This document shows, piece by piece, positions 27,170-52,529 of a stretch of 64,000 nucleotides of DNA (its first letter is position 1; each line of letters opens with the position of its first letter). The notes below the pieces were generated by a model, which saw only the letters and a list, made by a program, of their open reading frames with translations, had not been told where the DNA came from and ran no database searches. The stretch spans positions 173,355 to 237,354 of the forward strand of contig JAJKFJ010022336.1 in NCBI GenBank assembly GCA_027382625.1, in the 5' to 3' direction. The stretch is from Tetmemena sp. SeJ-2015 (taxonomy: Eukaryota > Ciliophora > Spirotrichea > Sporadotrichida > Oxytrichidae). The position numbers were made by a program, and so were the translations under genes.

Positions 27170-27182
27170 AAGAAAAATTACT
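27170..27182 (+). other. Scrambling pointer, incoming copy AAGAAAAATTACT
   Basis: The 13-bp sequence is identical to the reverse complement of 30944-30956. It marks the start of the plus-strand block of the C2CD5-like gene. Bases on both sides differ between the copies, so the identity is exactly 13 bp. Confidence 0.85.
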
Positions 27183-30100
27183 AGAAGCAGATAGCTGGAA
27201 AACAAAATTTGAAGAGCAACTTACTTTTGAACAAAGATAAGGATTAGGATGACACTCGACCAAAGGTGGAGTTTATTACCTCAAACACTTTCCCAGAAGA
27301 TGCACTGATGTGGTTTGGATCGACAGGGTTTCAGTCCGATCAGTACGCTTGATATCACTCAAGACTACTGAGAGAAATAGTTGGTGGGCTGAGCTAAGAG
27401 AGGAAATCACTAAGAATGCACTCTCAATGAATTGCTCGCACATCATAGGCTATAGAGAAGTGGTGAGTATCTATAAAGATGTCATGGTTCTGAATGCTTT
27501 TGGCACTGCGGTTAAAATTAAAGAGATCTCTCATTAAGCTACGAAAAAGGATCATCTTAAGGGCAACCCTATTAGGATGAGAACTCCTATGGAATATTCC
27601 CCTTCTTTAGAACCTATACCACTTAATAAGAATGTAAGCGCCTAACTCCAAGACTATAAGTATTAAAAGAAGCAGGGTGAGGGAGCTTTATAGCAAACTC
27701 AGAGCTAATCTAATAAGACTACAAGACTTTCCTGCTAATTCTGCCATGTCATTCAGAAGAGCTACAGCTAGGATAAAGTGATGAGCAAACTTCATCTCTA
27801 CAAATGCTTAGAGTGCAACAAGGATTACGTTCCAGAAATTATTATAGCATCAGTTGATCCTCCCGAAGGTCTAAATATAATAGGGACTTCCAAATACATA
27901 GAAGCTAGATTAGTTAAATTGAAGAAAAATTTAAAAGGAGAGCAGCATGCTATAACCATAAGTGAAAAGGTGTTCTTTTTAGAGTACCATCTGCATAGTC
28001 AACTTATAAAAAAGATGAAGATGTATGGTAAAAATGCTCTCTTCAGTTTGAGATTTAACATCATTATCTCTGAAGATACTATAGTTGGAGTAGCCACATT
28101 TTAATTATTGATAAAATTTCGAAGATTTTTGAAATTATAAATACACAGGAACTGCTCTATGCCTCAAAGCTCTTCCCATCCCTGCCCATTAAAGATACAG
28201 TAAAACATGCAAGTTTTCTAAGAGAATTAGGCTGATAAGCGCTTGTTTGAGAATCTTGAGAAACTTTAAAAGTTTTACATAGAGCAAAGTCTGGAGTCAG
28301 ACATCTATTCTATCAGGACTCCTTACTTCTTCATGCAGTAGTAAAAGTATCAAGAGTACTTTGCAGACAATAGAAAGTTTAGCTCTGATTAACTAGCTAT
28401 GATAGAAATTATAAAGAAGTCGCCATCCAAAAGTAATACTCTAGAAGAAGAAAAGTTTAAAGCATCTTTAAAAAAGTGTTATTTTATTTTAAGTTAACAG
28501 ATTTGGATAATTTGCTGGCTCACTCTGGCTTTTAAGGAATACAAGGGAATCATATTCTTGCAAACTTTAATCATGAATATTTGAGGAGAATATCGGAGGA
28601 GGTCTTATCAAACGATCATGCTAAAATTAGCCCAAAAAAACTCTAACCAAGACAGGCTGATTAAGATTTCACTAATTTTGAAGAAAATGTGGAAGAGCCA
28701 CTTACAAACAAAAACAGTCAATCTAAGAGAAATTTTAATCAGATTAACATTCTTGCACTGGATAATTAAATGCCTTATCATTTTTATAATGAATAAGAGA
28801 TAAGCATTAATTTTTGAATTAAATGCCATAATCTCAGATAAGTCCTAGTAACGTCCAATAATCTCCAAATCAGAATACTAATTTTGTTTTCACAAGAGAG
28901 GAATCTAAAGGTGCAACCGAAACCCAAATAAATTAGAAAAATACGAATGCGGCAGGAGGTAGTGTTTATCTAAACACTGCAGGTTCTCCGCATGATCAGC
29001 AAGAAAGAAAGGAAGAGAAAGAGGAGTTCCGTAAAATGAGAAACTCCCCTTAACAGAGAAACCACTCTGAGAGACAAGACTTTTATTTTTTAAAGTTAAT
29101 CATGATAATTTCAAAGGAGGCCAATCAGTAAATAGTTTGAATTAAATCAAACTTAAGATCAATTTAGAAGGTGTCAACAAAAGAGTAACTCAAGACAATG
29201 AAGAAAGTTATTTCTTTCCAAATTATTGAATAATTAACATTTTTAAAAAAGAAACAGCTGGAAATTTCCAGAATGATAGTCGGTAAAATCACATTGTTGA
29301 AAATGTCCGCGGTAAATACACCTTGTCATTGAAGGACATGACATTAAAAATTGTTAATTAATATCTTTCTTTCATTTTAATTAGAGCAAAAGGTAGAGTT
29401 CTACAATTTAAATGACAACTTCCAACTAAATAAATAAGTTCCTTCATTTTCTCTACCAGGGGCTGCATTATCATTATATCAAAATGAGTTTCTTGCTTAG
29501 CCAAATGACGTTCCTTAGTCGCCTCTTTTAAATAATCAAGTGTCTGCGGGTGGCAGTCAGCTTCCAAATTTCTACGATTTCATAGCTGATAATAAGCTAG
29601 TAGAAAGCACTAAGTATCAAATGTACCTTGGCAATAACACTCAAGTGAAGACATCTTTTCTCATTAAGCTAGATGATATGAAAGATTTAGATGTCTTAAA
29701 AAGTGCACTAGATCCCTTTGTGCCAGAGAATTAAAAATTTTAGGACTTGTAACTTCCAATTTTAGTTTAAGTGATTATTCTGAATTTGATAATCCTGAAT
29801 ACCTAATATGACTTGTTTAACTATAACTGGTAGAGCATAGATCCCGACAAAGTGTAATTCATCTACAAGAGTTGCAGATTCCTGTTTGAGGAAAGAGATG
29901 AAAACAAGATTAATACCACCTTTAATCAAATACTCCAGCAAGCTCATCAAATTTATTGATTGTAAATGACTTCTATTACTTTATACATCTAGAGTTAGTG
30001 TAGTGGGTTATTCAGCAAGGATACACCCCTGGAGTGATTTGCGCATTGAGAGATTAGATAAAGATCTAAGACAACAACTATATTGACATCATTTTTACTG

Positions 30101-30884
30101 GAGCCATTTTGACAATTGAGGAACATCAAATGCTACAAGTAGTGAGGAAAGAAAAAGACAAACTATCGGTCAGAACTGATATTGATCTTCCCAAAGAGAT
30201 ACTTTCAAAAATTATAAAAGCTTATTATACTTGAGTCGATTAATTAAAGTGGTCATAAGCCTGGAGATGATCATAGAATATCTATAGACTTGACTCTCGG
30301 GGAAGGTAATTTGCATAATGGCTAATACCAAGGATAAAAAGAGAAGAAGGAGAAGAGGAGGAGGTGGTTTCTTTTCGTTTTTCAAATGCGGTCAAAATAA
30401 ATAGGTTAAACAAGAATAGTATAACCCAATTGCAAACAATTTTACTTTATATATGTCATAAACAAAAGAACTCATATAAAGTTGCTGCCTATGTCTATTT
30501 ATCCCAAGAAGATTATCAAAAAAGTACTTGGGAATTGTGGATGTTCATTTGATGAGGCAAATTAGAATAACTATAAGAGAAGAAGACAAGTTGCCATCTT
30601 TGATTGAAGGAGTCTTAGATGAAGTGAATGAAACAGTCAAAGCTAAGGTAGAGGCTCTTGGTGGAAATTGCCTACTGGGATATAAAATCGATGTTAATAC
30701 TCTTGAGCAGACTTAATAAACCTAGTTGAATTTGCTGATAAGTTGTTTCGGAGACGTAGTGGAAGTTGAAGAAGCCAAAGATATTAATTATGGACTAGAA
30801 AATTTAAAGCCTAAGGTCACTGAAATCGATAGCGCTATCTAGAAAACAACAGTTAGAGACTACCTCCTTAAAGATATGGCTTGA
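27170..30884 (+). CDS. C2CD5: C2CD5-like protein, middle and C-terminal part (scrambled gene, second block)
   Basis: This block encodes everything after the first repeat domain of a C2CD5 (CDP138)-like protein, a C2-domain protein linked in animals to membrane trafficking and vesicle fusion. Matches in order: KVEFITSNTFPEDAL; VSVRSVRL then NSWWAELREEI and CSHIIGYREV (second repeat); a C-x2-C pair near 27,800 with YKCLECNKDYVPE; ARLVKLKKNLKG and KMKMYGKNALFSLRFNI; and FIPRRLSKKYLGIVDVH, KVEALGGNCLLGYK and ISCFGDVVEV near the C-terminus. The stop is TGA 30882-30884. It has no C2 domain or start codon of its own; those are on the other strand downstream. A one-base slip near 27,305 looks like an indel. 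Confidence 0.88.
28095..28147 (+). other. IES, pointer CACA
   Basis: CACA at 28095-28098 and 28144-28147; 49 bp would be eliminated. The join reads VGVATGTALCLKALPIP, which matches the C2CD5 family at this position (consensus ATG followed by LxALPxP). Confidence 0.85.
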
Positions 30885-30943
30885 CAATTCATTCATTTTA
30901 CTAATCTAATTCGCTTAAAGGATTTTAATGAGTATTTGTTGGG

Positions 30944-30956
30944 AGTAATTTTTCTT
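30944..30956 (-). other. Scrambling pointer, outgoing copy (reverse strand)
   Basis: On the minus strand this reads AAGAAAAATTACT, the same as 27170-27182 on plus. Joining the two blocks here gives NKKNY continuing as QKQIAGKQNLKSN and on to DDTRPKVEFITS in one frame. Confidence 0.85.
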
Positions 30957-31845
30957 GTTAGCAAGGTTAAGTTGCAAGTTTTGATTTCTACCTGACTCAT
31001 CATCAAGTTTTATAATTGCTGCAGCAGTTCCATAGCCTCTGAGAACAAACCTTTTACTTTTGGCACCCTCATTATCAAGTACCTGTCTATATGATATAAT
31101 CGCATTTCCGCCTCTCTTAATCACTATCTTTCCCAACTTTCTTCTTAGTTTTAGGCAGTTTTCCTATATCAAAATCATATTCTCTGCTTCGGAGCGATCG
31201 CTCTTTTTGAAGTCGACAAGTTCTTCAACGAATCCAAGCATATTTTTCACAATGCAAAGAGGAGGGGAAGCTGAAGAAAAGAAAGACACCAGAGTCGTAG
31301 ATATGGCTTTTGCAATAAGCTTATGGAATTAATTATAAACCCATAATTTATTAAGTAAGGTTTATTTTCATCTCTGACAAATGTTAGCTTAACTTCTACA
31401 AGCAGCTCTCCTCTAAGGCCCTGAAACATGTCATAGATAGGAAACCAGCACTTGATTTGCTGGCTGTGATCTCCTCGTTCAAAAGAGAACTTAACTCGAT
31501 CAAGACAGTTCCAACCATATTTTCTCTGTTTATTACATCCTCATCTATGACCTTGATCTCCAATACATTTTCTTAAAGCTACTCGTCGTCTATTTTCTCA
31601 AACGCAAATGTTGCATTCTGCCATTTAGGATTGAGTTCATTTAATATAAAATTTGCTTAATTTAATGTCTCTATATTTTGATTATCATTGTAGACAGTTT
31701 CAGTTTAGAAAATTGTTCCTGTTCCATCGACACCCCCAGTTCTTCCGAATTACACAAGACAGTAGGCATCAGTTGTGTTCCTAGATTTCTCCATTATAGG
31801 CAAGTTCCTAGCTTCATATATGATACATTTTAATTCACTAGGCAT
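30944..31845 (-). CDS. C2CD5: C2CD5-like protein, N-terminal C2 domain and first repeat (scrambled, inverted block)
   Basis: ATG at 31845. The start MPSELKCIIYEARNLPIMEK aligns with the C2CD5 N-terminus. The C2 domain continues with TDAYCLVQFG, LNPKWQNATFAFEKI and IKVIDEDVINRENMVGT, then CWFPIYDMFQGLRGELLVEV. The first conserved repeat follows: MLGFVEELVDFKKSD, RGGNAIISYRQVLDNEG, VLRGYGTAAAI. The block ends at the pointer 30956-30944, just 59 bp from the C-terminal stop of the same gene on the plus strand. It starts 152 bp from the divergent RING-H2 gene. One frame slip near 31,460 looks like a missing base. An AT-rich gap near 31,300-31,370 is probably an intron or IES. Confidence 0.9.
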
Positions 31846-41097: not shown

Positions 41098-44000
41098 ATG
41101 AATTTAAACAGCGACGATTATTATTCATGTAAGCACCCATATTTATATTCAGAACATCTCAAAATCACTTCCTCAATAATTTATCCTGAAACATAACACA
41201 AAAACCTATAACTGAAGATGTAAAAATTCTCACTACTATCAAATTATTTGCCGAGACTCAACTTAATCTCAAGCTATGAAAGTCAAAAAGAATTCTCCTC
41301 CAAAACTTATTTTTAGCTTAAAATAATATTTAGAAGTTTAATTGAAAGTAGCTCAAGCTTTTTGGAGAACTTCCATTTTGATGAGAAATAATAAAATTGC
41401 TTTATATAGTGTCTGACGGAGAGAAGCGGAAAGGTTTCTTCGATCCCCAACTCCCAAATAAAGTAATCAGGACTAAAATCAGCTAGCGAGAGTTTAAGGA
41501 TATTCTTATCACATTATTTTATAATAACTATGGATTAGATCATATTTCTGACTATCAAGGAGGAGCAATAGACCAAAGTGAGTAGTACTTTGATGAAATG
41601 AAGAATGGCAGCAGCAATATACTTGTAAGTACTCCTCCTTTGCAAAATTAATACCTTTTGCCCAAATTCTTCGGCCAAGAGCTGAGGGTAGAAAATATGT
41701 GAAGAAATGCGAATAAAGACTAAAAATTTTATCTCGCATTAAAATTAATCATCTGAAATTAAAAACGTCAATTAACTAATTTCTTAGGTTGCTGTCAGAT
41801 TGAGACCGATGTGGAAAAAAGAGTTAGAAAAAGATGAGTTTGAGATTGTGAGAATTCTCGACTAAAAGGTTGTGAATGTATTATATGTTTCAATTCTTTT
41901 TCTTCTTAATTGTGATCTTGATGGACCCAGCAGATATCCTCAACGAATAGAATGTGTTGGGAAAGAATAGAAATAAAGAAAAATAATACGCTTTCGACTT
42001 TGCATTCGATAAAGACACTCAGTAGACTGAGATATTCCAGAAAACTACTAAGTTTCTTTGCGAAGGAGTGCTAAATGGTTACAACGCTACAGTATTTGCT
42101 TACGGAGCCACAGGTGCAGGGAAAACTTACACGTAAGGATCATTTATAGACAATTCTACTTGAAATGAGTTATTAATGTAATTGTAGTATGTTAGGCACT
42201 GAGGACAAACCAGGCATAATGTTCCAAACTTTGAAAGAGTTATTCACTAAAATAAGAGACTTTGAAATCGACAGAAGTTACAATATACGAGTCTCCTTCC
42301 TTGAAATATACAACGAGTAGATTAGAGATCTTATCATGGTTTCTTCAGACGTTCTTGACCTGAGAGAAGATCCTGTCAAGGGAGTTTAAGTTGCAGGTCT
42401 ATCAGAGATTGAAGTAGATACTCCTGAAGAAATTTTGGACTTGCTCATGTAAATATATCCTAAATTGGTTTAATCTCATTTAGATTTGGAAATAAGAATA
42501 GAACCGTTGAAGCCACTGGTGCAAATGAAACTTCTTCAAGATCACACGCAGTGCTTTAGATTATCTGTGAGCACAAAGATAAAGATGCAGGAATAGAGGC
42601 TGAGCTCAGAACTGGAAAGCTTTCTCTTATTGATTTAGCTGGCTCAGAGAGAGCCTCTAAGACGAATAACAGAGGAATTAGAATGATTGAGGGTGCAAAT
42701 ATTAACTATAAATATTTTACTGATTGTTTGAAGTTTTATTTTTAAACAGATCACTTTTGGCTTTGGGAAACTGCATAAACATGCTCCACGAGAATAACTC
42801 GAAGAACTAGCAAAACTATATTCCCTTCCGTGACTCAAAGTTAACTCGTCTTCTGAAAGATTCTTTAGGAGGCAACTGCAGAACAGTTATGATTGCCAAC
42901 ATTTGTCCATCTAATGCTTGTTATGAAGATAATAATCTCTATATCATATATGATAGTATACTTATTTAGAGATACTCATAACACTTTGAAGTATGCAAAC
43001 AGAGCTAAGAATATTAAAACAACAGTCCAGAGGAATGTTCTCAACGTAGAATATCACGTCTCGAAGTACACGTAAATTATAGCCTAATTGAGAAACGAAA
43101 TCTAGGATTTGAAACATCAACTCAAGTCTAATATAGTATCAAATGGCGGAATAAATCCCTCCTCGTAGTTAGCCCTTCCACCCATATCTAGAGAGCCTCC
43201 CTTCAATGCAGAGCAACTCGAGAGGCTAAAAGATGAATTGAATACTCACTTCGCTGAAGAGATAAAAGCCAAAAAGCGAGTCCATGAGTTAGAGCAAAAA
43301 ATGGAGACAGTGCACTTAGTGTCATCACCAAAAAGAATGAGTTAGCTCAAATACTCAGAGAGAAAGGATAGAATGCGAAGGACAGTATTCAGGTTAAGAT
43401 TATAAATGAAGAGATCGAGGAGTCTCAGAATTAAATAGGAGAGCTAAAGAAAAACCTTGAGGCCACTAATCAAAGAATCACACAGCTCCTCAAGCGCCGA
43501 GATTAATTCCCTTAAGACTGGAAATAAGCAGGAGCTAAGGAAATAGCTCTAGAATATTTCTTGGTATTTATTATGCATTAGAAGTGTTAGGTCATGTAAT
43601 GAAGGAAAATACAATTTTGGTGGAGAATATGGAATTCTCTCGTCGAGAGTAGAAAGCAGACCTGCAGTTGAAAATCAAAGATATGTAGTTCAGTAAGTTC
43701 CAAGAACAGATTAGGATAAGAGATGAAATGCTAGCTTAGGCCAAGAGAAGATACAAAGTTGAAGGCTTCGAGTATGATATCGATGATCCTTAAGTTTTAA
43801 TCTATGTAGAGAATTTATAATCCTCGAATGATATAAATTGAGGAACTAATGCAGTAGAGTTCTCTGTTCCCACCCATTTAAAATACTGCATACGGAAAGG
43901 CAACAGGAAATTTAATTAAGTCCTTGCTCAACAATTTTAACGGTAGTGGCAATAGTGAGGAGAAGAAAGCTCCAACTTAAAGGCGACAGTAGAACAACCT

Positions 44001-45096
44001 CAATAATAACAATGTTTACCATTCTCTTCCACCGATTGGACCTACGAGAGACCAGAGTGAATCCAGGATACCAAAGCCAAAGTATGTTTTATAAGCAAAT
44101 TTTGATGAAAAAAATAGAGCGAACATAAACTTCAAGGATTTAAGGGAAGCCTCCAATATTGGCTAGCCTAAGCGAGCTCAGCAACTATCTGTGAATTCGA
44201 GAGTCTAGAGCTACGGCTTGATCGGAAAACGATTTAGTATTATATAGTATCAACTTTAAATGGAAAGCAAGGTGGGAGTGCAAACAGCAACTTCGCTAGT
44301 CAACCCTACGGTCAGCTTAACATTCAAAACTAGTTAGGCATACATGGTTAATCTTCATTGCTCACAAACGCGACCAATCCACCATCGAGTCACAATAACA
44401 ATAACCACAATACCAGTCAAAATAACATTATTGGCTCTAAAACTAATCTTGCAAATATAAAACAGCAGATCAATTTCGCGAGTAACTTTGCGAAGAATTT
44501 GCAATTTAAATCTAATGTAAAGAAACCCACTTCTCTATTAAATAGAGGAGATAGAGAGAATGTAATTAAGAAGTCACTGCTTCCTTCACCTTCATAGAAT
44601 ATAAATTTTGCAAACATTATTCTCTTTGACATAGATAATTTTTTAGAATATTCTAACCCATCAACAATTTGAAGAGCGAAAGAGATCCAACTCAGTTTAA
44701 TCTTCAGGTTCCATAATCTCCACTGCATCTTCTAACTCCCCAAAATTAGATGGAAAGAGAAACAATAAATCTAGTTCTCTTCAGATTGCAGGTATGTAAC
44801 TCGGCAGCCAGAGGAGAAATTACATCCCTTCCAAATTTGACAAAAGTCCTTTTGTCAAAGCTAGTTTATACTTGATTTAGATTTTTGAAGCAGGTGATAT
44901 TGTACCAAGTGGGGCTCCAGGCTCAGGAGGTCCAGGTAGAATTAGCAACTAGAGAGTCGGAGGAGGAGGTGTTGCACTTTCCATGGCAGCAAGAAAGAAG
45001 GAAATGCAAATTCATTAAGAGCAGAGCTAGCAAATCCTAGAAAAGAATAAGAGAAAGGTGCTTGATGCTCTTAACAAAAATTACAGGAAAAGATGA
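41098..45096 (+). CDS. KIF19: Kinesin-8, KIF19-like
   Basis: The motor domain runs from about 41,789: VAVRLRPMW, then after IES removal [10 protein letters not shown] (KIF19 has xVVLMDPxE here), P-loop GATGAGKT near 42,110, [18 protein letters not shown], switch [13 protein letters not shown], switch [51 protein letters not shown] and a neck with [10 protein letters not shown] as in KIF19. An N-terminal extension (41,098-41,680) precedes it through a GT-AG intron. Further introns: 42133-42187 and 42449-42483. A coiled coil and a basic Ser/Gly/Asn tail follow, ending [15 protein letters not shown] and TGA 45094-45096. KIF19-type kinesins move to and depolymerise axonemal microtubule plus ends and limit cilium length. 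Four IESs are clear. Confidence 0.9.
41870..41915 (+). other. IES, pointer TTGTGA, in kinesin motor domain
   Basis: TTGTGA at 41870-41875 and 41910-41915; 40 bp would be eliminated. It changes frame and yields [12 protein letters not shown], the kinesin-8 consensus. No AG acceptor is available for an intron. Confidence 0.92.
42704..42747 (+). other. IES, pointer AAC, in kinesin motor domain
   Basis: AAC at 42704-42706 and 42745-42747; 41 bp would be eliminated. It restores the invariant [13 protein letters not shown]. The insert has no GT-AG ends. Confidence 0.92.
42927..42973 (+). other. IES, pointer AGAT, in kinesin motor domain
   Basis: AGAT at 42927-42930 and 42970-42973; 43 bp would be eliminated. 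It restores [19 protein letters not shown], the last conserved motif of the motor. Confidence 0.92.
44858..44891 (+). other. IES, pointer AAGC
   Basis: AAGC at 44858-44861 and 44888-44891; 30 bp would be eliminated, in frame. The join [16 protein letters not shown] removes a hydrophobic stretch with a Gln stop-type codon. It is less certain because the frame is open either way. Confidence 0.55.
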
Positions 45097-45285
45097 GAGA
45101 TTTTTCATTAAAACACACAAATTATTTAGATTAGCATATTTCAAAAAGATTAAAGGGTTTAAATGGAGAGAGATTAAGTTAGTTATCTTATAAAATCATT
45201 TTCTTCTTTAAAATACTTAATCATATCTCGAGGGATTTAAAGTTCTAATGACAATTACTATAATATTAAAGTAAATACAATATAA
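45097..45285. other. Short intergenic spacer
   Basis: 189 bp of AT-rich DNA between the kinesin stop and the PRPF6 start on the same strand. Confidence 0.6.
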
Positions 45286-48200
45286 ATGGTTTTCAAGAAG
45301 CCTAATTTTGGACCACCTCCTGAGAATTACATCGCAGGTTTAGGCAGAGGGTAATTTTCTTTTTATAATCTTTAATTTTTTCTTTAGAGCAAGCGGATTT
45401 GTAACAAGAGCTGACTACGGACCTTCAAAGGTTGGAGTGACAACAGTAAATGGGTAGACAATTGATTTGTAGGTAAATAATTTCATGAGCATAAATCATA
45501 CTAACTATCAATGGAATTATAGACCAGTAAGTAAAGTAAAGTAAAGTAAAGTAAAGTAAAATTTTAGGAATATAATTAATAATCAATTTCATTAAATCAG
45601 CACTTTCGTACTGTTTATAGAAATCAGTTACTATCCTATGTAAGATTATAGACCAGAATCAGGACCCCAGCCTGGCTAAACAGGAGCAGGGCCTCAACCC
45701 ATTAGAGGTGCCCCTACTGCTGCTATGAGAGAACTGACTGGAATGGGTAGGGGAGCAGCGATGCCTGGCAAGGAAAGAGAGCAAGATTTCTCTGACTCCA
45801 ACTTCGATGAATGGAGTGGTTTTGGAGGGAGTTTGTTCTCTGGCAATACTGCTAATGATGATGCTGAGGACAGAGAAGCTGATAACATGTTCTCAAAGAT
45901 TGATGATTTCATGGATGGAAGGAGAAAGCGCAAGAGAGAAGAAAAAATCAAAGAGGAAGAGCAAAAGCTTGCCAAGGATAAAAAAGACATGTAAACTCAG
46001 TTCGCAGATTTGAAAAGAGGATTAGCAGGAATCAGCAGAATTGAGTGGGAAGCACTTCCTGATGCTCCTGACTTAGTGAAAAGATCTAAGAGATAGAAGC
46101 TTAATGACTATCAGAAGTACACTCCAATTCCTGATGTTGTAATTGATCAAGCGAGATTGGATTCTCAAACTAGTACTTTCATTGATCCTAACTCTGGAAT
46201 GACCACAACTACAGGACTTATAGCTCCAAATGGTGGAAACGCTGGTTTTTCTTCAGTGATGAATGGCGGAATGGTTAGCAGCATAGGTGATATTGGTCAG
46301 GCTAGAGGGAAATTGCTAAATCTCAAATTGGCAGCTGCAGAAAGCGTAATCTCAAGTACTAAAAGCAATTCTACCTCTACTTTTGACAGAGATGGCTATA
46401 TCACAGCAATCAACTAGCAGCAATTTAACAATCTTCATGACATAAAGTAAGTCTTTCTTTGAGTATTAATATATTATTAGTGATTTCAAGAAAGCAAGGA
46501 AAATGTTTAAGAGTGTCATCTAGCAAAATCCTCAGAGTTCAATGGGATGGATAGCTGCAGCTAGAATTGAGCATTTAGATGGAAAAATTCAAGAAGCTAG
46601 AAATATCATCAATTAAGCTTGCCAAGAACTCCCTAATGACGAGGATATTTGGCTTGAAGCTGCGAAGATATGCCCACAAGAAAAGGTTCAAGCATTAATT
46701 ATAAAATAGCTGTCATTATAAAATCAGATAGCTTTTATTAATATTGCTGGCAAAAGCAATAAGTAATATTCCTACTTCAAAGAAGCTGTGGTAGATGGCA
46801 GCTATGAAAGAATAAGATGGAGAGATAAAGAAACAAATTTACTAGAGAGCATTAGAGCAGTTGCCAACTGATCTTGAACTTTGGAAAGATGCCATTTAGA
46901 TAGCTAACCCTGAAGAAGCGAAGACACTCCTTTATAGAGCTGTAAAATGTATTCCTGATTCTACTGAACTCTGGCTTGCCTTAGCTAAGCTAGAGACTTA
47001 CGAGAACGCAAGAAACGTACTAAATGATGCTAGAGCAGCTGTCCCTTCAGATCATACTATTTGGGTGCAGTGCAGCAAAACTAGAAGAGGCTTAAGGTAA
47101 TACTCAACTAGTTGATAAAATTATCAACAGAGCAATAAAAAAACTTGGCAAAGTTATTGCTCTTAAAAGAGATCAATGGCTCAGAGAAGCTGTACTTGCT
47201 GAAGAAAGTGGTTCTGTTGTAACTTGCAGAGCTATTGTCAAAGAGACAATGGATTTTGGAATGGAAGATATTACTAATGCCTATTAGGATGAGCAAGAAA
47301 GAAAGAGACAAATTAGAAATGTCTGGAAGGAAAATGCCGAAGAATGCATAAGATAAGGTGCTATAGAAACTTCTAGGGCCTTATACTCTTATGCTATCAA
47401 AGAGTATCCTTAGAAGAAAAGTCTTTGGTTTAGCGCGATAGAGCTTGAAGAGAAATATGGAAGCAAAGAGAATGCAAATGCTTTGCTTAATAAAGCTTGC
47501 GAGCATACTTCATAAGTCTTTTTCTATCTCAAGCATGCAAAATTCACTTGGAAAAATATGAAAGATGCTGCAGCTACAAGTAGAATCCTTATTGCAGGCT
47601 ATAACTAGCATCCAGATTCTGAGGATATAAACTAAGCCTTATAAAGCAAGTTCATTTTATTCAAGTTTTAAGTTTAGTTCTGGCACTTCAGAAGTTTTAC
47701 AGAGAAAATCTTTAGTTTAAAAATGCAGAGAAACTTCTAGAGTAAGCATCTGAAGCAATCCCCTAGAGTGAAAGAATTCTTATGCAAAGAATTTAGTTGC
47801 AAAGAGAATAGAATAACACTTCAAACGCACTTGCCCTTGCTGATTTAGCTTTGTAAACTCATAGATCCTTCTATAAGTTTTGGTTGATCAAAGCTCACAT
47901 TCTTCAGTTCTAAGCTAGTCTTATTCCTGAGGGTGCCGAAGAGTCTGAGCAAGAAAGGGAAAGAGTTTAGTTGCTCGAATCTTCTCGCAAAGTTTATGAC
48001 GAGGCTTTGACTGTGGAAGAAGTTAAATCTTAGAGAATTATCTGGCTTGATTATGCGAGGTTTGAGTCTGATCAAGAAGCATTCACAAGAGCTAGAAACA
48101 TTTTACAGAAAGCTAGAATTAGGATGCCTGCAGTTGATGAAATATGGCTTGCCTCTACTCGTCTTGAAATTAAGAGTGGTAATATCCAATAGGCTAAAAG

Positions 48201-48666
48201 ATTGATATCTGAGGCCTTACAAAAGTGTCCGAATAGTGGTAAAGTGTGGGCTCAGCATCTTGAGATGGAGCCCTCTGCCACAAGAAAATCTCAATCTCAT
48301 AATGCTGTTACTAAGATTGGAAATGATTGTGTTTTGTTCCTCGCCATAGCAAAGATTTTCTGGAGTGAGTATAAAACTGAAAAGATGAACAAGTGGATAA
48401 AGAATGCACTCGCAATCGACAAGGATAACGGAGATGCTTGGGCCTTGCTTCTGAGATACGAAATGGAATTTGGTAATGCCGAAAGTTAGGAGCAGGTAAT
48501 TAAAGATTTTAAGGAGGCTGAGCCTAGACATGGAGAATAATGGGCAACTGAATGCAAAAAGGTAGAGAACTGGAGGAAGGATAGAGCAGAATTGCTTAAA
48601 AAGTTAGCTCTCTTCAATTCAAATGTTCCCTTAAATTTGATTTCAAGTTTAGAAGCAATACTTTGA
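45286..48666 (+). CDS. PRPF6: Pre-mRNA-processing factor 6 (Prp6/PRPF6)
   Basis: U4/U6-U5 tri-snRNP bridging protein, nuclear, needed for spliceosome activation. The N-terminus MVFKKPNFGPPPENYIAGLG then RGASGF is the PRP1_N signature. After an acidic stretch (DSNFDEWSGFGGSLFS) come IGQARGKLLNLKLA and, across an intron, DINDFKKARKMFKSV. HAT repeats fill the rest: WLALAKLETYENARNVL, WKENAEECIRQGAIETSRAL, NSGKVWAQHLEME, IFWSEYKTEKMNKW and EAEPRHGEQWATECKKVENW near the end. The stop is TGA 48664-48666. GT-AG introns: 45351-45387, about 45,469-45,522 (with a TACTAAC branch site, overlapped by an IES), and 46447-46480. A likely extra base near 47,071 breaks the frame in IWVQ-AAKLEE; another slip lies near 46,700. 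Confidence 0.95.
45516..45656 (+). other. IES, pointer ATTATAGACCAG, overlapping a splice acceptor
   Basis: The 12-bp repeat is at 45516-45527 and 45645-45656; 129 bp would be eliminated. The insert begins with seven GTAAA-type units (45528-45557). The pointer contains the 3' splice site TATAG|ACC of the second PRPF6 intron. After deletion, intron removal joins QTIDL to PESGPQPGQTG in frame. Confidence 0.88.
47639..47676 (+). other. IES, pointer TTA, in PRPF6 HAT repeats
   Basis: TTA at 47639-47641 and 47674-47676; 35 bp would be eliminated. It changes frame and joins HPDSEDINQAL to VLALQKFYRENLQFKNAEK, matching the repeat register of PRPF6. Confidence 0.8.
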
Positions 48667-49097: not shown

Positions 49098-52000
49098 TCA
49101 TTCATGACTATGATCATGAGCATGACTGTGATCGTGACCATGATCGTGACCGTGATCGTGATTATGCTCATGATGAGCATGCCCGTTTTCATGTTAATGA
49201 TCATGATCGTGGTGGTCATGATTTTCAGCAGCATGGCTGTGCTCATGATCGTGTTTATGATTGTGATCGTGCTTATGCTCATGTCCGTGATCGTGACCAT
49301 TTTTATGCCCGTGATTGTGACCATGTTTATGCCCGTGATCATGACCATGTTTATGCCCGTGATCATGTTTATGTCCGTGGTCATGTTTGTGACTATGATC
49401 ATGTTTATGCTCGTGATGGTGATTATGTTTGTGATCGTGTCCATGATCATGGTTGTGATCATGATCATGGTGTTCGTGATCGTGATGCATTTTATAATAA
49501 GAGAGAACAGCGGGGGGGGGGCCTTTCCTCGTCATCCACTTTTTACATGAAAATATGAAAAATCATGATCTAGCCTAAAATTAGCCAAAAACACCGTTTT
49601 TTTAGTCCTAATTCAAATTCAAAAGGTCTATCTAGGCCATATTCCTTATTTTGGTAATTTAAAAGATCTTTGAAAGAATTTTTATTAGAAAAAATAAAAT
49701 TGCAAATGTATTGTAATATTAATAAAAAAATAGGTTAAATTTAATAGGTTTAAGATAAAAATTTAAGAAGCTAAGAGATCTCTCAATTAAGAAACGAAAC
49801 TCTTAGAATCATCTTTAATATTAAATCTCTAAATAAAACATAAGATATTATTTGATATAAATCTAAAGATGTTTATTAAAAGTATTTTTCTAGGGTATTC
49901 CATAAGTTTTATATAAAACACAACTAGTTTTAAATAAAATATTATGAAAGATAAAATATACAGTTTATTTTTTTTTAAATTAATGCTACTTTTCTAAATA
50001 AAGAATATTTCCTGAATAGATCGTTTGAATATCAATTTGGACTAAAAAACTGGTGTTTTTGGCTAATTTTAGGCTAGATCATGATTTTTCATATTTTCAT
50101 GAAAAAAGTGGATGACGAGGAAAGGCCCCCCCCCAGAACAGCTTCAAATTGAATGATGGTCGTGGTCATGGTCATGTTCTAATTCTTTGGGCACTTTATC
50201 ATTCACTTAATTCAATACTTTCAAGGCTTTAAATTATTGGAATTTAAGGATTGTCGCAGCAGCCAATCTCAAGAAGATCGTTTGGTGTTTCAATCTAGAT
50301 TGTAGTGTGATAGATATTGTACTTGTTCCTGAGAATAGCGGTCATCTTGTGAAGAGCAATGAGTGGTCTGTCTGATCTTACATGCCCACTCATAGACAGC
50401 TTACCAGCTGAGAGTGACCAAACATGGAAATCATGAATCTCATCAACCTCGTCCAGAGAGAGTACATCTGTGAAGCATTGAACGACATCGATATCCTTAG
50501 GAGTAGCCTCCATCAAGATTGAAACGCAATCTCTGAAGATGGGTATGGTAGTGAAGATGCACAAAAAGGTGAAGAGGAAAGTGCAAATAGGATCCACGAT
50601 GTGCCAGTCTGGTCTAAAGTAGATCAACTCATTAAGACACATTATAACTTAAATAGATGATAATGGCAGCAATGACGACTCCAATACTCTGAATGATATC
50701 TCCAATATAGCTCAATTACTATTAAGATGAAAAGTTATAATGCTTAGATTCTTCTTCATCTATTCTAGATGATAGAATAATGTGGATAATTGCAGCTCGA
50801 ATGTTCATATTTTCATGACTGTGTCCGTGGCCACCATGTCCGTGACTGTGTCCATGTCCGTGCGAATGACCATGAGAATGACCGTGGCTGTGTCCTTCCT
50901 TTTTCTTCTCCTTCTTTTCGTGTTAGTGATCATGTTTGTGGTCGTGTTTGTGATCGTGGTGCTCATGCTTGTGAGGGTGAGAGTGAGCTTGAGATTGGCA
51001 AGTACTTCCACTACATTCTTGATCTGATGGTTGGTAGTATTTCTGATCGCTAAGTGGGGAGGCAGCAAAAACATTGCCTCCATCTCAAAATAAGCATATT
51101 ATAAAGTAACCTCTCATGACCATAGATTGGTTGTTGCTGACAGTTGTCATGGTATGATTCAAGCTCTGCTTTTCTAATTGTCCTCAGCAAGCAATTGATC
51201 GTGATCTTCAACAATCTCTAAATCATGTAAGCCTTTTAACATGAAATAACTTTGAAGGAATTTTTATGAGATAGATTACTTTGTTGTGATTATCTGAATG
51301 ATGATGATGATCATGATCATGGTTGTGGTGTTCGTGCTTCTTATCCTTTTTGCCTTTCTTAAGCTTTCCATTTCTCTTTTTGGCTTCTTGATTGAGTTTC
51401 TCAAGCTCCGGCTGATGGCAATGACTCAGCTCCTTGCTCTCATCATTTGAGTGACTATGACCATGTGCATCGCCATGGCCGTGATCATGCGAATGGCTGT
51501 GCCCATGATGATGATGACCACCGCACGAGTGTAGAGTGAAGATAGAAATGAAGTTGAAGACAAGTCCCACTCCAGCAGTAATAAGCATGATCTCACCATC
51601 AATGCCCTCTGGATCAACGATTCTGTGAATAGCTTCTATAAAAAGCCAGATAATCAAACCCCAAATCAGTAAGACTGAAGCCAGTGCTCCCAAAATTTCT
51701 GCTCTGTGGTAGCCAAAAGACATCTGATAGTTAGCGGGTCTTGATCCCAAGTAAATAGCGAAATAGCTTATCAAAAATCCAGCCACATCGGAAAGCATAT
51801 GAGCAGCATCAGTGATGATTGCAATAGATCCTGAAAGATAACCTCCCACGATTTCTCCAGCCATAAAAATGAAGCAAAGGCAAGTGACTACTAGTAGTTT
51901 ATAGCGAGCCCGATCGTTTTCTTCTTTCATAGCTTTGAGTAAGTCAGTCTGTTCTAAAGCACAGTTTCCCCTGTTGTCTTTTGTATTTGAGAAACTCTTC

Positions 52001-52146
52001 ATAAGAAGAGACTTTTTAAGTATTGAAGGATTAGATTCTTCGTCTGCGTTCTATTTGAGTCGATTGTAAAGGATGTCATTACGGATGGGTCTTTGTTCGA
52101 GCAAATTTTGACTTTACTCTGAAAGAGCTCCTGGGGTTGTGCTCAT
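49098..52146 (-). CDS. Zinc transporter, ZnT/SLC30A family, with very long His-rich regions
   Basis: ATG at 52146 (MSTTPGALSEQSQNLLEQRP). TM helices of the cation diffusion facilitator fold follow, with metal site AIITDAAHMLSDVAG and FGYHRAEILGALASVL, LIWGLIIWLFIEAI. A His loop (GGHHHHGHSHSHDHGHG) then extends into a second His-rich stretch at 50,800-51,000. TM5-6 need IES removal: NIRAAIIHIIGDIIQSIGVV (the conserved H-x3-D site), then PDWHIVDPICTFLFTF. The C-terminal domain has LDEVDEIHDFHVWSLSAGK and NIYHTTIQIE. It would export Zn2+ to vesicles or out of the cell. The end is uncertain: the frame may stop near 50,199, or continue after the CATCA IES into a His/Asp tail of about 125 residues to TGA at 49100-49098. 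One missing A near 51,170 is likely. Confidence 0.88.
49483..50158 (-). other. IES, pointer CATCA, carrying a nested inverted-repeat element
   Basis: CATCA (TGATG on plus) at 50154-50158 and 49483-49487; 671 bp would be eliminated. The join links ELEHDHDHDH to DHEHHDHDHNH in frame, so the His-rich tail becomes part of the ZnT protein. Caveat: His-codon repeats make short pointer matches likely by chance. Confidence 0.55.
49512..50134. mobile_element. 623-bp MITE-like element, about 115-bp terminal inverted repeats, 8-bp target duplication
   Basis: The ends are runs of 10 G (49512) and 9 C (to 50134), then GGAAAGG/CCTTTCC and GTGGATGACGAGG in inverted orientation; about 115 bp match nearly perfectly. 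The flanking AGAACAGC is duplicated at 49504-49511 and 50135-50142. The interior is AT-rich with no transposase, so it is non-autonomous. An 8-bp duplication fits hAT-like and several other DNA transposons, but the G-run ends are unusual. Another terminus is at 430-540. Confidence 0.92.
50614..50649 (-). other. Candidate IES, pointer AG, in ZnT
   Basis: Removing 34 bp between AG at 50648-50649 and 50614-50615 (CT on plus) joins IAAIIIYL to RPDWHIVDP, the ZnT consensus. A GT-AG intron of 35 nt at nearly the same place gives the wrong frame, but a one-base indel could make it the right one. Confidence 0.5.
50704..50779 (-). other. IES, pointer TATT, in ZnT TM5
   Basis: TATT (AATA on plus) at 50776-50779 and 50704-50707; 72 bp would be eliminated, in frame. 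It restores RAAIIHIIGDIIQSIGV. There are no GT-AG ends. Confidence 0.88.
51233..51282 (-). other. IES, pointer AAAG, in ZnT
   Basis: AAAG (CTTT on plus) at 51279-51282 and 51233-51236; 46 bp would be eliminated. It joins HSDNHNK to GLHDLEIVEDHDQ. The insert begins GTAAT and ends AAAG, another intron mimic; splicing it would give a wrong frame. Confidence 0.7.
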
Positions 52147-52529
52147 CTTAATTAGTAAATTTATTATTTAAACTACGTAGTAGTGAGTTATGAATATATG
52201 TTTAAAGTTTAGTAAGTTTACTTAAGTCCTTGATGTAATACTACTATCTTCTTTGCTATCCTTAAAAAAGAATAGTTGATAAATTGTCCTAACACGTGAA
52301 AGTGAGAATTAAAATCATCAATATAGGTATGAGTTAATTAAGTGCATTTAGTAATATATATTGGATATGCATTTGTATCTCAACAAATAGAATAAACACT
52401 TTCTGAGAATCAAAATTAACAGTTAATTTGTTTTCAATTTAATTTCAATCATATTTCAATTTAGCTTATCTGTCATGTATATTTTTTTCTAATTCACATT
52501 CTACTAACTTTATCTTTCAGTTTTCTAAA
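52147..52529. other. Intergenic, no gene seen
   Basis: AT-rich DNA upstream of the ZnT start and downstream of the next minus-strand gene; it probably holds the ZnT promoter. Confidence 0.5.

Follow-up and report, generated by a model that had tools for sequence, protein, structure and literature searches.

We analyzed a 64,000-nucleotide stretch of DNA (hereafter the window) from the spirotrich ciliate Tetmemena sp. SeJ-2015 (assembly GCA_027382625.1, contig JAJKFJ010022336.1, positions 173,355 to 237,354 of the forward strand). The window very probably contains a scrambled micronuclear (germline) gene of the C2CD5 family, in which the 5′ block, the first macronuclear-destined segment (MDS1), is inverted and lies downstream of the 3′ blocks. 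The gene consists of two head-to-head blocks, the front on the minus strand (31845–30944) and the rest on the plus strand (27170–30884). Complementary blocks, a pair of pointers, an in-frame join, no other copy in the assembly, and the germline character of the assembly were directly observed.

Two Complementary Blocks on Opposite Strands

The blocks were translated with genetic code 6, in which TAA and TAG encode glutamine. Read from 31845, the minus strand starts with MPSELKCIIYEARNLPIMEKS..., continues through a C2 domain and then GFVEELV... and a YbjQ-like repeat, and runs up to the 13-bp word AAGAAAAATTACT at 30956–30944. This block, with the C2 domain and the first YbjQ repeat, is the front of the gene. 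Meanwhile, the plus strand leads from the 13-mer at 27170–27182 into KVEFITSNTFP..., RSVRLI, WWAELREEI, and more YbjQ-like repeats, and terminates at a TGA. The parts of the locus are as follows:

30957–31845, minus strand: MDS1, the first macronuclear-destined block, with the start codon at 31845 and one probable small internal eliminated sequence (IES) inside (Pfam C2 and YbjQ_2; tblastn, 7 of 8 homologues)
30944–30956, minus strand: 3′ pointer of the first block, the sole minus-strand copy of AAGAAAAATTACT in the window
30885–30943, no strand: 59-bp spacer that separates the stop codon of the plus block from the minus-block pointer (from the coordinates)
27170–27182, plus strand: 5′ pointer of the second block, the sole plus-strand copy of AAGAAAAATTACT in the window
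27183–30884, plus strand: second block with the remaining YbjQ-like repeats and the C-terminus, at least one probable IES, and the stop at 30882–30884 (YbjQ_2; tblastn, 8 of 8 homologues; reading frames)

The joined protein was searched against 5.8 billion proteins, and the 8000 candidates sharing the most words with it were scored. Eight relatives were returned among these 8000 best candidates, including C2CD5-like proteins from Ptychodera flava and from Ornithodoros turicata. In tblastn searches with the eight homologues under code 6, minus-strand matches were found for seven of them (within 31851–30951, residues up to 275), and plus-strand matches were found for all eight (within 27319–30782). 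In the seven homologues that matched both strands, the plus-strand residues begin at 303, and they overlapped the minus-strand residues in none (0/7). This bears out a preliminary description of the locus, which had held that the blocks cover complementary parts of one protein. The remaining homologue, P0008 (427 aa), matched the plus block alone, and the C-terminal stretch was matched by five of the eight.

The profile searches gave the same picture. The N-terminal C2 domain (Pfam PF00168) scored 54 bits against a cut-off of 22. In addition, YbjQ_2 (PF23025, "C2 domain-containing protein 5") scored 115.2 bits against a cut-off of 29.1 in the second block and 34.9 bits in the first, the latter over residues 2–76 of a query reaching across the join; in the genome search, the first-block match reached 41.5 bits. 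Thus, the preliminary description was right in placing the C2 domain and the first repeat on the minus strand, although the block itself is not one open frame, and the profile check that it had proposed for the joined protein returned C2CD5 domains from both blocks. The C-terminal YbjQ-like domain alone stayed below threshold (PF23128, 13 bits, cut-off 27; PF23025, 19.9 bits, cut-off 29.1).

Like the C2CD5 proteins (homologues P0001–P0007), the protein has an N-terminal C2 domain followed by YbjQ-like repeats, and the motifs FPIYD, GFVEELV, and the RSVKLL type stand in order once the blocks are joined. Unlike them, the germline copy here is split and inverted, and its C-terminal repeat alone falls under the Pfam cut-offs. 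A literature search for C2CD5 together with ciliates turned up a single paper, on melanocortin-4 receptor signalling.

The Shared 13-bp Word and the Join

The word AAGAAAAATTACT occurs once per strand in the window, at 27170–27182 (plus) and 30956–30944 (minus), with different flanks, exactly as the preliminary description had it for the block edges. It is also the longest word common to the last 125 bp of the first block and the first 178 bp of the second. By chance, a common word of at least 13 bp appeared in 6 of 2000 dinucleotide shuffles and in 3 of 3000 pairs of pieces drawn at random from the window (0.1–0.3%); in the random-pair control, draws less than 400 bp apart were skipped, yet they were kept in the denominator of 3000.

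When the blocks are joined at the 13-mer, one frame stays open from 31367 through the join to 27349. This frame carries the homologous KVEFITSNTFP..., as placed by alignment with the homologues, and is the frame that homology requires. The earlier claim that joining here keeps the frame into the next conserved block therefore holds. The alignment puts the join site in a variable linker of the C2CD5 family. Furthermore, because the two copies of the 13-mer are oppositely oriented, inversion of 27170–30956 alone is enough to regain the gene order, and the gene then reads on the minus strand.

Frame Changes and Probable Small IESs

The reading frame is interrupted within both blocks. Five frame changes were examined: three are one-base breaks, and the other two fit short IESs. 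The features concerned are:

28096–28144, plus strand: 49-bp stretch, probably a conventional IES, with the 3-bp pointer ACA, second copy at 28145–28147 (frame and homologue fit)
31305–31351, minus strand: 47-bp stretch, probably a conventional IES, with the 3-bp pointer ATA, exact ends uncertain (alignment and frame-restoring options)
31440–31450, minus strand: one-base frame break at about 31444, inside the conserved SGWFPIYD (reading frames and alignment)
27300–27327, plus strand: one-base frame break at about 27300–27326, just ahead of the conserved VSxRSVxL (reading frames and alignment)

Both IES candidates have 3-bp repeats, and their removal brings back conserved sequence. Excising 28096–28144 yields VGVATGTALCLKALPIP, where homologue P0003 reads VGVATGTAVYLSALPPP, and an alternative GT..AG intron of 59 nt at this site would drop the conserved VAT (judged by eye). 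Near 31340, about 20 residues are extra with respect to the homologues, and they vanish if the 47-bp stretch with its ATA repeats is removed. The ends of this stretch were picked by eye for homologue fit among the first 12 frame-restoring options, and the options listed included no GT..AG removal that restores the frame. Judging from these sequence features, both short stretches are probably conventional IESs. The third one-base break, at about 28185, lies in less conserved sequence. The one-base breaks are probably assembly errors.

Two other accounts of the frame changes were rejected. A Euplotes-type code or frameshifting at stop codons does not fit, since TAA and TAG stand for glutamine in conserved stretches and the one-base breaks examined are not at stops (by eye). 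Sequencing errors do not explain all of the changes either, since two of the five fit the 49-bp (ACA) and 47-bp (ATA) IESs.

The one-base breaks, two of which fall in conserved motifs, raise the question of whether the gene is dead. A germline inversion through the 13-bp inverted repeat could have gone without being undone in development, and the frame breaks would then be decay. A simple inversion is indeed enough to produce the arrangement, and no second intact copy was found in the assembly. However, the conserved domains score well in both blocks, and conserved sequence returns when the probable IESs are excised. In addition, the neighboring Prp6 homologue, which is expected to be essential, shows a one-base break of its own near 47065 (by eye), suggesting indels at the level of the assembly. 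We therefore consider a dead gene improbable.

A Single Set of Parts in the Assembly

The assembly searched comprises 146 Mb in 5213 contigs, and the contig carrying the window is 237 kb long. YbjQ_2 rose above its cut-off at three places at the locus and at the same three places on another contig, C3713 (6 matches among 8 candidates). Meanwhile, a protein query across the join matched only the window locus and C3713 in the whole assembly (4 matches among 4 candidates). C3713 shows the same two-block arrangement and matches the window at 100% identity across the 30 kb that were compared. It is an overlapping redundant contig, so that it gives no independent confirmation, and for the same reason we rejected it as a second gene. 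Beyond C3713, no further C2CD5-family copy was found in this one 146-Mb assembly, and no contig with the joined (unscrambled) version was found there either.

These counts bear on two other explanations. Either block could in principle be transcribed from its own strand, and the locus would then hold two independent genes, or its two transcripts would be joined post-transcriptionally. However, the assembly yielded a single set of C2CD5 parts, not the two separate complete C2CD5-family genes that the preliminary description had considered as the contrary case. Furthermore, no protein region is common to both blocks, and tblastn with the eight homologues gave no plus-strand match to the C2 domain or the first repeat ahead of the plus block. 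We give this explanation almost no weight.

Second, the inversion could be false, that is, an artefact of assembly or amplification. Amplification is known to produce inverted chimeras at short homologies, and C3713, being an identical overlap, repeats the arrangement without being independent. However, both edges must break at the same 13-mer, so that two matched false joins would be needed. The length of the contig also speaks against this explanation, and a repeat of 13 bp should not be long enough for an assembly graph to be flipped through it. An artefact is thus very unlikely.

Germline Character of the Assembly

The assembly is supported as spirotrich germline by evidence independent of the C2CD5-like gene, namely C4A4 ends, DDE_3 transposases, the comparison of contigs C298 and C1815, and the reading of TAA and TAG as glutamine. 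There were 67 exact C4A4 matches in the assembly, and 9 of them start at base 1 of a contig; a reversed-pattern control was uninformative, since the pattern reads identically backwards. At the three contig ends examined (C298, C334, and C508), the repeat is exactly 20 bp long. For the DDE_3 transposase, there were 921 first-look candidates, of which 150 were scored and all 150 matched.

The telomere-ended contig C298 aligned with C1815 (27612–37120) in two pieces of 95% and 97% identity with a 3-bp overlap. Between these pieces, C1815 has a 6.5-kb insert that starts with C4A4 repeats. Telomere-bearing elements carry C4A4 ends, and the insert looks like such an element removed as an IES, with the two contigs resembling a macronuclear and a micronuclear form. 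The DDE_3 matches and the insert in C1815 argue against a somatic assembly, which we rejected. Another telomere-ended contig, C672, matched C3247 over 2917 of 2980 bases, and this comparison showed no large insert.

Some side observations concern the same contigs and repeats. About 32 bp of C672 are absent from C3247, and C672 carries a high-copy repeat of 400 bp, for which a first look gave 1329 candidates and 40 were scored. Many C4A4 matches are clustered inside a contig at C2828:3805–4156. In C126 and C204, C4A4 repeats lie within a C-rich repeated sequence that contigs share.

Comparison with Known Scrambled Genes

In the parts of PMC2394655 that deal with Stylonychia lemnae actin I, the micronuclear order is given as 3-4-5-6-7-8-10-(-2)-(-1)-9, with a 19-bp pointer at the scrambled 2-3 junction, conventional pointers of 3–10 bp, and IESs of 23–64 bp. 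The C2CD5-like gene resembles it as described there, for in both the inverted 5′ part lies behind later MDSs, the scrambled pointer is long, and the conventional pointers and IESs, which are probable ones here, are short. Unlike actin I, which in the same account has ten MDSs with MDS 9 further permuted, one inverted junction suffices here, and the protein is C2CD5-like. Meanwhile, the sections of PMC9797194 on pointers give canonical lengths of 2–20 bp, longer at scrambled junctions, and treat MDS inversion as established. The locus agrees with those sections, with 13 bp at the scrambled junction and 3-bp repeats at the probable small IESs.

According to the figures in the relevant part of PMC10901763, scrambled chromosomes make up 4.2–29.2% in four spirotrichs, and inversion-only cases account for 21.4–69.4% of these (O. 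trifallax, 21.4%; Strombidium cf. sulcatum, 69.4%). As in the inverted nanochromosomes of that part, the MDSs here are oppositely oriented. However, those nanochromosomes were defined there by matched macronuclear assemblies, whereas the C2CD5-like case comes from a germline assembly alone.

The locus and its assembly show much of what marks an inverted-MDS germline gene of a spirotrich: the orientation of the segments, the pointer, the in-frame join, and germline sequence with transposons and probable IESs. Its layout is as published for Stylonychia actin I, and pointers and inversion are established; therefore, scrambling of this kind is already well known in these organisms.

Points That Weigh against Scrambling and the Neighboring Genes

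Several results weigh against reading the locus as a scrambled gene. First, the other conserved genes sampled look colinear, and thus scrambling is not pervasive among them. In the window, a Prp6 (PRPF6) homologue (44876–48663, plus) is colinear by alignment. A kinesin gene (41686–43723, plus), which is broken up into short frames, and a minus-strand gene of the cation-efflux (ZnT-like) type, matched by Pfam at 51226–52314, also look colinear, from Pfam pieces or the Pfam match and otherwise by eye. In the assembly, all 20 multi-piece actin-family groups were colinear, as grouped by eye from 65 rows that include redundant contigs. Second, one-base breaks account for three of the five frame changes and hit conserved motifs twice, which makes gene decay possible on the sequence, and more frame changes lie at about 28480–30400, in poorly conserved sequence. 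Third, a pointer match of this length, taken alone, arises in 0.1–0.3% of the controls. Fourth, an IES-like insert was seen in one of the two telomere-ended contigs compared with the assembly. Finally, the arrangement is known from the germline assembly only.

The neighboring genes also have features of their own. The Prp6 homologue contains a 34-nt GTAAGT..AG intron at 46447–46480, and its stretch 47631–47690 is either an IES or an intron. The region of the cation-efflux gene (49101–52314) has histidine-rich stretches, with a downstream histidine-rich tandem repeat at 49101–49562. The best actin-family match in the assembly, C2293:49904–51013, is one open frame of 368 aa, whereas actin I of Stylonychia and Oxytricha is scrambled. 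This actin is either a different paralogue or from an unscrambled lineage.

Proposed Unscrambling and Its Meaning

Our best inference from the sequence is that the C2CD5-like gene would gain function only once its blocks have been inverted and joined in the developing macronucleus. There, the two copies of the 13-bp pointer would pair and recombine. The recombination would either invert 27170–30956, or move and invert MDS1. The product would keep one copy of the pointer and a continuous frame, and the short conventional IESs within the blocks would also be excised. The anatomy of the locus and the known biology of the group suggest the developmental joining itself, and guidance by a template from the old macronucleus may be expected, as is known for hypotrichs.

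The gene adds one clear, simple inverted junction and leaves the existing knowledge of scrambling unchanged. It has just one inversion and a well-defined 13-bp pointer, which makes it a clean case for studying how cells tolerate and undo inversions in the germline. In addition, a flip suffices to order the gene, no DNA needs to be lost at the junction, and the conserved genes sampled in this germline are otherwise colinear. We tentatively suggest, as a rather doubtful possibility, that this is a minimal and perhaps recent scrambled gene. If so, it could represent the first step in the making of a scrambled gene from an ordinary one through inversion and programmed repair, and it could be used to test whether the unscrambling machinery buffers a fresh germline inversion.

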